In this document: positions 36,256-41,322 of the stretch, piece after piece
Numbering within the stretch: position 1 is the stretch's first letter
Layout: the number at the start of each line of letters is the position of its first letter
DNA from: Peptococcaceae bacterium
GTDB taxonomy: Bacteria; Bacillota; Desulfitobacteriia; Desulfitobacteriales; Syntrophobotulaceae
Reading direction: 5' to 3'
DNA length: 64,000 bases
Assembly (NCBI GenBank): GCA_012517475.1
Contig: JAAYUV010000008.1
Span: forward strand, 1 to 64,000
Position numbers and translations under genes: made by a program
Notes under the pieces: generated by a model
The model's input: only the letters and a program-made list of their open reading frames with translations
Database searches by the model: none
What the model was told of the DNA's origin: nothing

Positions 36256-37557
36256 TTATAGTTGATTGTACTCGATCCCCAAAGGCTTCAAAGCTCTGGG
36301 CAGAATTCCGTGAACTGCGGCGATTAATATACCATAGTTTACGATGGGAATGCCCTTATTCTCGGCCAGATTGATCCGGTGGAGCATTTCTTTTCGATTG
36401 AGCATGCAGCCGCCGCAATGAACAATGAGCTTATATTCATCCAGGTTAGCCGGGTAATTGGAACCATTTGCGAAATCGATTTTCAGCTCGCCCCCTACCA
36501 TTTGCCGCAACCAGCGGGGAATTTTGACTTTGCCGATATCATCCGGCTGCTGGTGATGGGTACAGGCTTCTGCAATCAAGATTTTATCTCCCGGGACAAG
36601 ATCTTCAATGGTTTTGGCCCCCCTTGCGAGGGAAAGTAAGTCACCCTTGTAGCGAGCCATTAGGATGGAAAAGGACGTCAGGGGAACATCCGGGGGCAGG
36701 TCAGCGGAAACTTTCATGAATACCTGCGAGTCCGTAATAACCAATTTCGGTTGTTCTTTAAGTGAATCCAGCGCTTTTTTGAGCTCGTATTCCTTGCAAA
36801 CCACCGTAAGGCAGTCGTGGTCCAGGATATCCCGAATAGTTTGAACCTGAGGAAGGATCAAGCGGCCCTGAGGGGCAGCCATATCGATTGGGACGACTAG
36901 AATAACCATATCTCCCGGAGAGAGTATATCCCCTACGATTGCCGGAGCCAGCCATTCCGTAGGTTTGACTTTGCTAAGGTGTTGTTTTAAAGAAAGAATT
37001 CCTTCTTTGGTAACCGAACTTACCATTAAGACCGGAGAATTACCCACTAGTATCGGAGAATTATCCTCACTTACAACAGAGGTTTTTTCCTCTGGCCGGG
37101 GGGGATTTCCAATCCTTTTCAGATAGAAATTTACCTCCGAGATCCGCAGGTTTCTGTGATAGTCATCCAATAGATCCGCTTTATTTAATACGATAATCAC
37201 AGGAATATTCTTCTCAGCACAAAGGAGGAATATCTTTTGTTCATATTCTCCGAAACCGGTGGAAGAATCGGTTACCAGCAGGGCAACATCTGTTTTTTCC
37301 AGGACTTCCAGAGATTTTTTTACCCTTAAGTTCCCCAGGGCTCCTTCATCATCCAAGCCTGCCGTATCAATCAGCATGACAGGACCGAGGGGGAGAATTT
37401 CCATGGCTTTATATACAGGGTCGGTTGTCGTGCCGGGGACGGATGAGACTAAAGCAATTTCCTGATTGGTCAACGCGTTAATCAAACTGGATTTGCCGGC
37501 ATTTCTTCTGCCCAAAAGAGCTATATGCAAACGGGAACCTTTTGGGGTGTCCTGCAT
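36256..37557 (-). CDS. hydF: [FeFe]-hydrogenase H-cluster maturation GTPase HydF
   Basis: A 433-residue scaffold protein on which the diiron subcluster of the H-cluster is assembled. The GTPase domain has GRRNAGKSS (P loop), DTAGLDD and NKAD. The C-terminal Fe-S motif is CTH ... HCGGC, the CxH/HCxxC pattern of HydF. The start is placed at ATG 37557 (MQDTPKGSRLH, as in the family) with AGAAGG about 9 bp upstream; earlier GTG and ATG codons overlap aspA. It directly follows aspA, with hydG further upstream. The hydrogenase itself and hydE are not in the window. Confidence 0.92.
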   Translation of the reverse strand: MQDTPKGSRLHIALLGRRNAGKSSLINALTNQEIALVSSVPGTTTDPVYKAMEILPLGPVMLIDTAGLDDEGALGNLRVKKSLEVLEKTDVALLVTDSSTGFGEYEQKIFLLCAEKNIPVIIVLNKADLLDDYHRNLRISEVNFYLKRIGNPPRPEEKTSVVSEDNSPILVGNSPVLMVSSVTKEGILSLKQHLSKVKPTEWLAPAIVGDILSPGDMVILVVPIDMAAPQGRLILPQVQTIRDILDHDCLTVVCKEYELKKALDSLKEQPKLVITDSQVFMKVSADLPPDVPLTSFSILMARYKGDLLSLARGAKTIEDLVPGDKILIAEACTHHQQPDDIGKVKIPRWLRQMVGGELKIDFANGSNYPANLDEYKLIVHCGGCMLNRKEMLHRINLAENKGIPIVNYGILIAAVHGILPRALKPLGIEYNQL

Positions 37558-37565
37558 AAAGATCA

Positions 37566-38966
37566 TCACCTTCTTTCTGTTTGACCCGCAATACCCGGCC
37601 TGGCTAGTTTGCGGTAGTCGAGGATGGATTCAATTTCCTGATCCGTTAAATATCCCAGTTCTTTAACAGCCTGTCTCACGGGGATTTTTTCCTTGCGGGC
37701 TGATTTTACTACCTGGGCAGTTTTTTCATAACCCAGATGAGGGAGAAGTACCGGAGCCGTAATGAGACTTTTCTCGATTAATTCGGTACAGCGCTCGTGA
37801 TTGGCTTGAATCCCCTTAATACATTTATCAGAGAGTATTTTTGCCGAGTTAGCCAGAACATCAATGGCAGAAAGGAGATTATGGGCTACCAGCGGCAAAA
37901 ATTGATTAATTTCCAGTTGACCGTTTTGGCAAGCCAATGTTACGGCCAAATCGCAGGCCATAACCTGAAAAGCAGATTGATTGACAGCTTCCGGAATAAT
38001 CGGGTTAACTTTACCGGGCATAATGCTGGATCCGGCCTGCATTTCGGGGAGAGTAATTTCACCAAGCCCTGTATAGGGGCCCGAAGACAATAAGCGCAGG
38101 TCGTTGGCTATTTTGTTCAGGTTTACGGCAGCAGCTTTCAGCAGTCCGGATACTTCCGTAAAAACATCCGCATTTTGGGTAACGTCCATCATATTTTCCG
38201 CGCGGGCCAAGCCGATGCCGGTGTTTTGTCTGAGTTTTTCTATCACCAGATAGATGTATTCCCTTGGCGCATTCAGTCCGGTACCCACGGCGGTTCCACC
38301 CAGGTTGACCTGCCTCAGGCGTTCTTCGACTTTATATATACGCCAGCGGTCACGGGAGACAGCCTGAGCCCAAGCACTGAATTCTTGCCCAAGAGTCACA
38401 GGAAGCGCATCCTGGAGCTGAGTGCGGCCCGGTTTGAGGATGCCGGCAAATTCTGCTTCCTTCTCCTGCAGGGTATCTTGCAATTCGGCGATTTGCTCAC
38501 TCAAAGGAAGAAGCATCTGAATCGCTGCCATCCGAAGGGCGGTCGGGTAAACATCATTGGTCGACTGGTGCATATTGACATGATCCAGAGGGCTGACCAG
38601 ATATTGTCCTTTTGTTCCGCCAAGGATTTCTGTCGCCCTGTTGGCGATCACTTCATTCACATTCATGTTGGAGGAGGTTCCTGCGCCTCCCTGAAGGGCA
38701 TCTATAGGGAATTGGTCTTCGAACTTTCCTGCGATAATTTCTGATCCGGCCTCAATAATCGCAAAAGCAAGGTCTTCACTTAAGTCTCCAAGTTCCATAT
38801 TGGCCTGGGCAGCCGATATTTTAATGATGGCCAAAGCTTTGATCAGGCGTGGGTGAACTTTTTGGGAAGAAAGACAAAAATTCTCCAGGGCTCTTTGGGT
38901 ATGAATACCCCAATAAGCATTCCGGGGGACTGCCTTTTGCCCCAAAAAATCGTGTTCCAATCGCAT
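37566..38966 (-). CDS. aspA: Aspartate ammonia-lyase, within the hyd cluster
   Basis: A 466-residue member of the aspartase/fumarase superfamily with the signature GSSIMPGKVNP and the HVNMHQSTNDV motif. It would convert aspartate to fumarate and ammonia. Fumarase C is the alternative, but the position inside the hydG-hydF operon favours aspartase, since aspA is found beside hyd maturation genes in other Clostridia. There it may supply ammonia for the dithiomethylamine bridge, an inference. It starts 23 bp after the hydG stop and runs into hydF. Confidence 0.8.
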   Translation of the reverse strand: MRLEHDFLGQKAVPRNAYWGIHTQRALENFCLSSQKVHPRLIKALAIIKISAAQANMELGDLSEDLAFAIIEAGSEIIAGKFEDQFPIDALQGGAGTSSNMNVNEVIANRATEILGGTKGQYLVSPLDHVNMHQSTNDVYPTALRMAAIQMLLPLSEQIAELQDTLQEKEAEFAGILKPGRTQLQDALPVTLGQEFSAWAQAVSRDRWRIYKVEERLRQVNLGGTAVGTGLNAPREYIYLVIEKLRQNTGIGLARAENMMDVTQNADVFTEVSGLLKAAAVNLNKIANDLRLLSSGPYTGLGEITLPEMQAGSSIMPGKVNPIIPEAVNQSAFQVMACDLAVTLACQNGQLEINQFLPLVAHNLLSAIDVLANSAKILSDKCIKGIQANHERCTELIEKSLITAPVLLPHLGYEKTAQVVKSARKEKIPVRQAVKELGYLTDQEIESILDYRKLARPGIAGQTERR

Positions 38967-38989: not shown

Positions 38990-40453
38990 TTACAGATACA
39001 GATCACGGACACCCGTTTTGATTTTTTCCAAGTTTTTAGCGGTTAATTCCTTCACCTTTTCATTCTGGATTTCCCCGATAAAGTGATTAATGGTTTTCTC
39101 GCCAAGCTCTCTGGTTTCCGGGGATGCATAATCGATAAGATATTCCTGGAAGGTCATAAGAGCATTGGGAAGACAGACGTTGCAAATGTTACCGGACTTA
39201 GCTAACTGCATAAACCTGTCCCCGGTTCTGCCCTGGCGGTAACAGGCGGTGCAATAGCTCGGCAGATACCCTTGAGTACAAAGATTAGCCAAAATTTCAT
39301 CCGGACTTCTGAGGTCTTCTACCTTAAACTGGGCAGTATCGTCAGGACCCTTTTTGCAGGTCTTTTCTTCAAACTCCTTCTTATAGGCTCCGATACCGGT
39401 GCAGGAACCTGCACTGATCTGAGAAACTCCCAGTTTGATGACTTCATCCCGGAAAACGGCTCCTTCCCTTGTGGAAAGGATAATACCGGTGTAAGGCACG
39501 GCAAGGCGGAAGATGGCTACGATATCTTTAAACTCTTCATCTTTAACGAGGTAGGGGAAATCTTCCAGGTTCATGCCTGCAGCGGGTTTAAGCCGGGGAA
39601 CAGAAATGGTGTGCGGCCCGACACCGAATCTTTCTTCCAGGTGAAGGGCGTGGTAGAGCGTTGCCAGGACTTCAAACTTATAATCATAAAGCCCGAAGAG
39701 CACCCCTGTCCCGACATCATCGATTCCGCCTTCCATGGCGCGGTCCATTGCTGTTGTATGATAAGAATAGGAAGATTTGGGGCCGGTTGGATGCATCTCT
39801 TCATAAGTGCCCTGATGGTAAGTCTCCTGAAAGAGAATATAGGTTCCGATGCCCGCTTCCTTTAACTTGCGGTAATTCTCAACGGTCGTGGCTGCAATAT
39901 TGACATTGACCCTGCGGATCGAACCCTGTTCTTCGCTGGTACTATAGATCACTTTGATGGCATCCAAAACATAATCAATCGGGCAGTTAACCGGATCTTC
40001 TCCCACTTCCAGGGCAAGCCGCTTATGTCCCATTTTTTCCAGAGCGATGACTTCGTCTCTAATTTCATCCATGGTTAGTTTTTTGCGGGTAATTTTGTTG
40101 GAATGGCCGTAACCGCAATATTTACAATTGTTGACACAGAAATTGCTGAGGTAAAGCGGGGCGAAAAGGACGATTCTTTTACCGTAGATCGTCTCTTTCA
40201 CCTCACCCGCTGCAGCGTGGATTTCTTTTTTCAGTTCAGGATCGGCTGTCTGGAGCAATACCGCAGCTTCTAAAGGACTGAGTCCTTTCGCTTCTTTAGC
40301 CTTGGAGATAATGGCTTTGATTTCTTCTTTTGTTGCTTGTTTAGCCTGTCTCAGATTGTTTTCAATCAGGTTTTGGTCGATAAAATCTACTTTTTGTTTT
40401 CCGGCCAGTTTTTCGGTTTCTTCTTTTAAGTGGTTATAAGCGATAGCCGTCAT
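38990..40453 (-). CDS. hydG: [FeFe]-hydrogenase maturation radical SAM tyrosine lyase HydG
   Basis: A 487-residue radical SAM enzyme that cleaves tyrosine to make the CO and cyanide ligands of the H-cluster. The SAM cluster motif is CVNNCKYC (Cys106, 110, 113), and the C-terminal auxiliary cluster is CTACYRQG ... CNVC. The start is ATG 40453 (MTAIAYN) with GAGGAGG 9 bp upstream; an in-frame ATG 81 bp earlier lies in the leader. The leader has a conserved 33-nt element and an intrinsic terminator, also found before the TM1266-like gene, so attenuation control is likely. Confidence 0.93.
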   Translation of the reverse strand: MTAIAYNHLKEETEKLAGKQKVDFIDQNLIENNLRQAKQATKEEIKAIISKAKEAKGLSPLEAAVLLQTADPELKKEIHAAAGEVKETIYGKRIVLFAPLYLSNFCVNNCKYCGYGHSNKITRKKLTMDEIRDEVIALEKMGHKRLALEVGEDPVNCPIDYVLDAIKVIYSTSEEQGSIRRVNVNIAATTVENYRKLKEAGIGTYILFQETYHQGTYEEMHPTGPKSSYSYHTTAMDRAMEGGIDDVGTGVLFGLYDYKFEVLATLYHALHLEERFGVGPHTISVPRLKPAAGMNLEDFPYLVKDEEFKDIVAIFRLAVPYTGIILSTREGAVFRDEVIKLGVSQISAGSCTGIGAYKKEFEEKTCKKGPDDTAQFKVEDLRSPDEILANLCTQGYLPSYCTACYRQGRTGDRFMQLAKSGNICNVCLPNALMTFQEYLIDYASPETRELGEKTINHFIGEIQNEKVKELTAKNLEKIKTGVRDLYL

Positions 40454-40494: not shown

Positions 40495-40607
40495 GCAGTA
40501 AAAAACTTTCCCCGAAAGGAAAGTTAAAGATCAAAGAAAGCTTATAACCGAAGCATTCATGAAGAATTTTCTTTCCTTTCAGATCAGAGGCAGTCTTTTC
40601 TGTCAGG
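40495..40607 (-). ncRNA. Candidate cis-regulatory RNA/attenuator upstream of hydG
   Basis: In transcript order: conserved element CCTGACAGAAAAG, 10 variable nt, ATCTGAAAGG (40607-40575); then an intrinsic terminator with an 8-bp stem AACTTTCC/GGAAAGTT and T tract (40525-40498). GAAAGGAAAG at the element's 3' side (40580-40571) is exactly complementary to CTTTCCTTTC (40523-40514) in the terminator, giving an antiterminator. The same element and logic occur upstream at 41022-41126. I recognise no known riboswitch class. Confidence 0.6.
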
Positions 40608-40733
40608 TCAATTTGTTATTCAATTAAAAAGGGTAAATTATATTAAAAAGGGTAAATTATATGGAATTTATTTTTGGAATTATTACTTAACACCTTTTAG
40701 AAAATGTGAAATGGTCAAATAAAATGAGAAGTA

Positions 40734-40985
40734 TTAGAAGTCTTTCTTCGACATTGCTGTTTTCACGGATACTTTGTCAATTTTTCCGAGTTTTCCCGTT
40801 AAACTGTTAATTTCATCGGTTTCCCCCAGGACAGCAATGGAAACAAGCGATATTCCCTGTTCCGGGATTGGGATTCCCATTCGTCCTTTGATAATACCTT
40901 TAAATGAGGCAACAATATCATTGAAGTCATGCTGGGTATCTTCCGGATCCTCCAGGATAGCACTGATCACTGCAACTTTTTTCAC
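40734..40985 (-). CDS. TM1266-type iron-only hydrogenase system regulator
   Basis: An 83-residue ferredoxin-like-fold (NikR C-terminal/ACT-like) protein matching the putative regulator that accompanies [FeFe]-hydrogenase maturation genes, as TM1266 of Thermotoga. It has no DNA-binding domain. The start is GTG 40985 (MKKVAVISAILEDP) with AAGGAGA about 9 bp upstream; a GTG 9 bp earlier overlaps the ribosome site. It precedes hydG by 280 bp, and both have their own attenuator-like leader. Confidence 0.85.
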   Translation of the reverse strand: MKKVAVISAILEDPEDTQHDFNDIVASFKGIIKGRMGIPIPEQGISLVSIAVLGETDEINSLTGKLGKIDKVSVKTAMSKKDF

Positions 40986-41021
40986 AGGCAACACTCTCCT
41001 TCAAGCAAAATCAAGTAAAAT

Positions 41022-41126
41022 AAAAAGGACTTTCTTTTCTGAAAAGAAAGTCCCGCAAAAAGCATAAGAAAAAATGTAACAGCTGCGGACTCGCCTTTCA
41101 GATTAGTAGATTACTTTTCTGTCAGG
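41022..41126 (-). ncRNA. Candidate cis-regulatory RNA/attenuator before the TM1266-like gene
   Basis: The 33-nt element CCTGACAGAAAAG-N10-ATCTGAAAGG (41126-41094) matches the one before hydG in all fixed positions and in length. It is followed by a perfect 12-bp terminator stem (41027-41038 with 41042-41053), 3-nt loop and TTTTTATTTT. CTGAAAGGCGAGTCC (41101-41087) can pair with the terminator 5' arm (41054-41039) at 14 of 15 positions, two being G-T. The 5' flank CAGCT can also pair with AGCTG 3' of the element. Confidence 0.65.
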
Positions 41127-41322
41127 ATAAAGCTGAAAAAACTCTAAAATATTGTCGAATTAATACTATCAGATTTTCACGAAGATGACAAGGTGAATAT
41201 CGGCAAATCCAAATAAGCAAGTAAAAATGATTAAAAGAAGGAAATAATATTGAATGTGACGAAATCTAAAAAAATACGAAAAATACAGTTGAAAGTGCCC
41301 TGGAGAAAGGGGAATGGTGAAT

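Follow-up and report, generated by a model that had tools for sequence, protein, structure and literature searches.

A symmetric RNA hairpin as a predicted switch in front of [FeFe]-hydrogenase maturation genes

The hyd locus and its two leader elements

The stretch of DNA analysed here (referred to as the window) comprises 64,000 nucleotides from a Peptococcaceae bacterium (assembly GCA_012517475.1, contig JAAYUV010000008.1) and carries, on the minus strand, a TM1266-family gene followed by hydG, an aspartate ammonia-lyase gene and hydF (Table 1). A 33-nt element precedes both the TM1266 gene and hydG, and in the two copies the outer parts, CCTGACAGAAAAG and ATCTGAAAGG, are identical and separated by exactly 10 nt. 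This exact pattern occurs only these two times in the 3.68-Mb genome, while the reversed control gave 0 matches, and each copy is followed by an intrinsic terminator. The original prediction, which described the duplicated element as an unrecognised attenuator with 10 variable nucleotides in its center, is therefore confirmed as an observation, with the refinement that the variable nucleotides are not just a spacer. They hold a covarying inner stem (AGT/ACT versus AGA/TCT), and the whole element is one hairpin that RNAfold finds without any constraint (-7.8 and -8.2 kcal/mol for the two copies).

Table 1. Features of the hyd locus in the window and the basis on which each was assigned
Position	Strand	Feature	Basis and remarks
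41163..41191	-	Promoter-like site TTGTCA-17-TAGTAT with extended TG, upstream of the TM1266 leader	Consensus scan; weak evidence by itself
41094..41126	-	Element copy 1, two-fold symmetric hairpin (CCU / GA / CAGA / AA / AGU ... ACU / AA / UCUG / AA / AGG), anti-antiterminator of the TM1266 leader	Pattern search, covariance model, RNAfold
41083..41102	-	5' strand of the antiterminator, overlapping the 3' half of element copy 1	RNAfold of the 89-nt transcript
41038..41058	-	3' strand of the antiterminator, overlapping the 5' arm of the terminator	RNAfold of the 89-nt transcript
41026..41054	-	Intrinsic terminator GGGACTTTCTTTTCAGAAAAGAAAGTCCT followed by a T tail	Stem of 13 pairs, 39 nt beyond the element
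40734..40994	-	TM1266-family gene (TIGR03959 / PF21699), proposed hairpin-binding protein	93.8 versus 60.8 bits (TIGR03959) and 85.6 versus 27 bits (PF21699), score versus cut-off; listed start GTG at 40994, but relatives and SD spacing favour the in-frame GTG at about 40985 (MKKVAVIS...)
40618..40655		19-nt tandem direct repeat (ATTCAATTAAAAAGGGTAA / ATTATATTAAAAAGGGTAA)	Between the TM1266 gene and the hydG element
40575..40607	-	Element copy 2, the same hairpin before hydG	Pattern search, covariance model, RNAfold
40571..40582	-	5' strand of the antiterminator of the hydG leader	12 pairs with 40523-40512; RNAfold of the 97-nt transcript
40512..40523	-	3' strand of the antiterminator of the hydG leader, overlapping the terminator 5' arm and loop	RNAfold of the 97-nt transcript
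40504..40525	-	Intrinsic terminator AACTTTCCTTTCGGGGAAAGTT followed by a T tail	Stem of 9 pairs, 49 nt beyond the element
38990..40453	-	hydG, radical SAM maturase of the [FeFe]-hydrogenase H-cluster	TIGR03955, 672 bits
37566..38966	-	Aspartate ammonia-lyase gene	Downstream in the same cluster
36256..37569	-	hydF, GTPase of H-cluster maturation	TIGR03918, 575 bits

Conservation and distribution of the hairpin

Each element folds into CCU, an internal loop GA/AA, four pairs, a second internal loop (AA/AA or AA/GA), three or four pairs and a terminal loop. In a seed alignment of 15 relatives, 95% of the cells are paired, 8 of 10 pairs show two-sided changes, none of 500 shuffles is as good, and sliding the partners by one base causes a sharp loss. 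Part of this seed was chosen by the pairing of the central 4-bp stem, and the hits of the resulting model lean towards the structure, so that the inner stem, which is free of that choice (as are the unaided folds of the window copies), is the cleaner test: 44 of its 45 cells are paired, with 11 two-sided changes. With 85 model hits the figures are 94% paired and 221 two-sided changes, against 59 in shuffles. Column frequencies show that both strands carry the same half-site, CUGA-N4-RAAG (of 85 sequences, left C84 U84 G75 A84, then A84 and G58 in the RAAG part; right C58 U70 G64 A80, then A85, A83, G84). The element is a two-fold pseudo-symmetric hairpin, in which two equivalent half-sites pair head to tail around two purine internal loops.

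The covariance model, applied to both strands of about 950 kb of related loci, gave 91 non-redundant hits at E up to 1, of which 68 lie directly before TM1266, 19 before hydG, 1 before hydE and 3 elsewhere. The 88 copies at hyd genes, far more than expected by chance, are all on the sense strand and none is inside a hyd gene. Many leaders carry two hairpins in tandem about 50 nt apart (start to start 48–53 nt in ten loci), and in one set of leaders (loci L012/L013/L018 and L014-L030 among those fetched) a further conserved hairpin of different sequence (TATCTGCTCGC...GATACAGGGC or GTTGTGTTGGAGG...CAGAGTGGATC) lies upstream of the canonical one and is possibly a degenerate first hairpin of the tandem. 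In many Clostridia the hydG copy lies just before hydG with its 3' end against the Shine-Dalgarno sequence (CUGACGGGGAAG...CUGACCCGAAAGAAAGGA..AUG), which suggests translational control there. No element was found before hydE of the window organism, which is on a different contig.

In 69 whole genomes all the non-coding hits of a second covariance model lie at TM1266 or hydG/hydE, two of them at truncated TM1266 genes, and five further hits lie inside open reading frames and are attributed to chance; in 22 genomes, 14 of 14 hits are at hyd loci. Internally deleted or truncated TM1266 genes still preceded by the intact element were seen in loci L174 (G061:C278) and L191 (G014:C204), whose genomes have another full TM1266 copy. 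These genome searches show specificity and not completeness, since the pre-filter scores only 94–150 of about 3000 candidates per genome and missed both window copies, and the absence of further targets is thus weakly tested. A pattern scan of the genome of the window organism with a pairing check left only the hydG copy plus two chance-level sites.

No family of Rfam 15 reaches its gathering cut-off in the window, T-box leaders (RF00230) included, and nothing at the elements matches Rfam in 38 related loci. The PyrR attenuator family (RF00515) scores 20.3 bits against a cut-off of 54, which was treated as chance. A TwoAYGGAY RNA (RF01731, 46 bits, above the cut-off of 43) was found at one related locus (L168:1841-1906, plus strand), downstream of the TM1266 start and about where TM1266 ends and the next gene begins, and it represents a second structured RNA of unknown function in a hyd locus. 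No report of the hairpin or of the function of TM1266 was found in the open library searched, which did not cover supplements or a 2017 survey of 224 RNA motifs (10.1093/nar/gkx699).

Competing folds in the leaders

Of 86 leaders, 78 have an intrinsic terminator within 230 nt (median about 30 nt after the element), against 13–25 in dinucleotide shuffles. The 3' half of the element pairs with its own terminator arm at -14.1 kcal/mol on average, against -11.1 kcal/mol with the arms of other leaders (permutation z -9.7, none of 5000 permutations as low), while the 5' half shows little of this (z -2.7). In both window leaders, folding of the growing transcript gives first the element hairpin, then the antiterminator as the minimum-energy fold (at 89 nt in the TM1266 leader and 97 nt in the hydG leader), and finally a return to hairpin plus terminator at 105 nt.

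That the element is part of an RNA attenuator is nearly certain, and these observations support the original prediction of a mutually exclusive antiterminator responding to a ligand or protein tied to hydrogenase maturation, which also survived the search for further copies before hyd genes and for known Rfam relatives. However, two refinements are needed. The hairpin is the anti-antiterminator, a polarity that is computed and not measured. By inference, while it is held together the 3' strand is not available, the terminator forms and transcription stops, and when it is not, the antiterminator forms and TM1266 and hydG are transcribed, so whatever stabilises the hairpin should switch the genes off. 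In addition, co-occurrence points to the TM1266 protein as the binder rather than to a small-molecule riboswitch, although this last step is inferred.

The proposed role of TM1266 and the alternatives

TM1266 heads the hyd maturation operon in most relatives. One test separates linkage from function. In TM1266-positive genomes in which hydG lies elsewhere, hydG still carries the element in 16 of 20 (in three families, E up to 0.013), whereas in genomes with hydG but no TM1266 it was found in 0 of 11 of the same class and 0 of 17 of the same phylum (Fisher p of 2e-9 by genome, and a modest 0.025 by family). Within two families (f67 and f79), TM1266-positive members have hits upstream of TM1266, those of f67 being two weak ones (E 0.03–0.06), and TM1266-negative members have none. 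The converse does not hold. Many TM1266 genes have no recognisable element upstream (about half of the sampled loci at this sensitivity), and two TM1266-positive families lack it at both TM1266 and hydG. Divergent TM1266 paralogues without hyd genes (loci L037, L038 and L040-L043) also lack it; in three of these loci (L037, L038 and L040, from a single genus) the TM1266-like proteins are 57–58% identical to that of the window and occur in genomes without hydG, so their role must be different or their RNA target lost.

An AlphaFold model of the window protein (pLDDT 96.9) was placed by Foldseek with TM1266 of Thermotoga maritima (PDB 2NZC, TM-score 0.88), and next with the NikR C-terminal regulatory domain (about 0.8) and ACT domains. 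The similarity to NikR is of fold only; the 86-aa protein scores 17.6 bits against the NikR_C cut-off of 22, has no extra domain and no ribbon-helix-helix DNA-binding domain, and its family has no conserved His/Cys nickel site. Taken together, these observations suggest, with somewhat better than even confidence, that a dimer or tetramer of TM1266 binds the symmetric hairpin and represses its own operon and, in parallel, hydG, as PyrR does with its three pyr attenuators (PMC7430163). Binding is probably modulated by a small ligand, plausibly a signal of H-cluster supply or need, although no ligand is identified, and at the hydG copies that abut the Shine-Dalgarno sequence the same binding would block translation instead.

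The logic proposed for TM1266 is that of PyrR in that copies lie before the regulator gene and between operon genes, a protein-stabilised anti-antiterminator with a purine-rich internal loop leads to termination, and the first gene of the operon regulates itself (PMC7430163), although here this is inferred and the anti-antiterminator role rests on computation. The consensus differs (CUGA-N4-RAAG twice and not ARUCCAGAGAGGYU), the protein fold is unrelated (NikR-C/ACT and not phosphoribosyltransferase), the hairpins are often in tandem and some copies lie at the ribosome-binding site.

The main alternative, possible but less likely, is that the hairpin is itself the aptamer of a small-molecule or ion riboswitch (for example for a SAM-derived compound, iron, a tyrosine-derived product, or a CO/cyanide signal) and that TM1266 is only one of the regulated genes. 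Its conserved purine internal loops, attenuator architecture, broad distribution, use at ribosome-binding sites and tandem copies at a fixed pitch, as in some known tandem riboswitches, fit this view, and a riboswitch inherited together with TM1266 would give most of the same patterns. On the other hand, hydG lacks the element in all 28 sampled genomes without TM1266, which would have the same need to sense, the conserved positions are few and repeated by symmetry, as is typical of the binding site of an oligomer, and the element is a single 33-nt hairpin with no conserved loop or pseudoknot.

Binding by another protein encoded elsewhere, such as an ANTAR or LicT/SacY-type antiterminator or a general RNA chaperone, seems unlikely. 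The two-hairpin leaders appear to resemble ANTAR substrates in layout, and the two internal loops those of RAT hairpins, but neither consensus is matched, no such regulator is encoded in the hyd neighbourhood, and the presence of TM1266 tracks the element. As for ANTAR targets, the terminal loops here vary in length, are not conserved and lack the hexanucleotide signature, and a single hairpin suffices in the window; as for RAT hairpins, their binding probably favours the antiterminator, which the present hairpin opposes. A ligand-independent element (fixed partial termination, an mRNA processing site or a stability element that sets the stoichiometry of TM1266 and hydG) is more doubtful still; intergenic hydG copies could tune expression within an operon, and no ligand or protein is proven, but the preservation of two competing folds across divergent leaders and the conserved unpaired purines argue for a regulated switch. 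Chance similarity or a recent local duplication without function, which the presence of only two copies in the genome might have suggested, is ruled out by the covarying copies before the same genes in many families.

A protein-stabilised anti-antiterminator is a known type of mechanism, while the RNA class and, if the inference is right, the protein–RNA pair are new as far as the open library searched shows. It is about as likely as not that TM1266 is the founder of a new class of RNA-binding regulators, a NikR-C/ACT-fold sensor that lost (or never had) a DNA-binding domain and instead reads a two-fold symmetric hairpin, tuning H-cluster assembly in anaerobes by attenuation or by blocking the ribosome-binding site in response to an H-cluster-related ligand. 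How cells adjust H-cluster assembly, for which HydG makes the CO and cyanide ligands, is largely unknown, and TM1266, found in over half of 399 sampled genomes of the phylum and structurally known since 2006, has only been called a “putative regulator”. The present analysis gives it a concrete, testable RNA target, defines a widespread RNA class absent from Rfam, and offers a symmetric protein–RNA recognition motif not seen in the known attenuators compared here.
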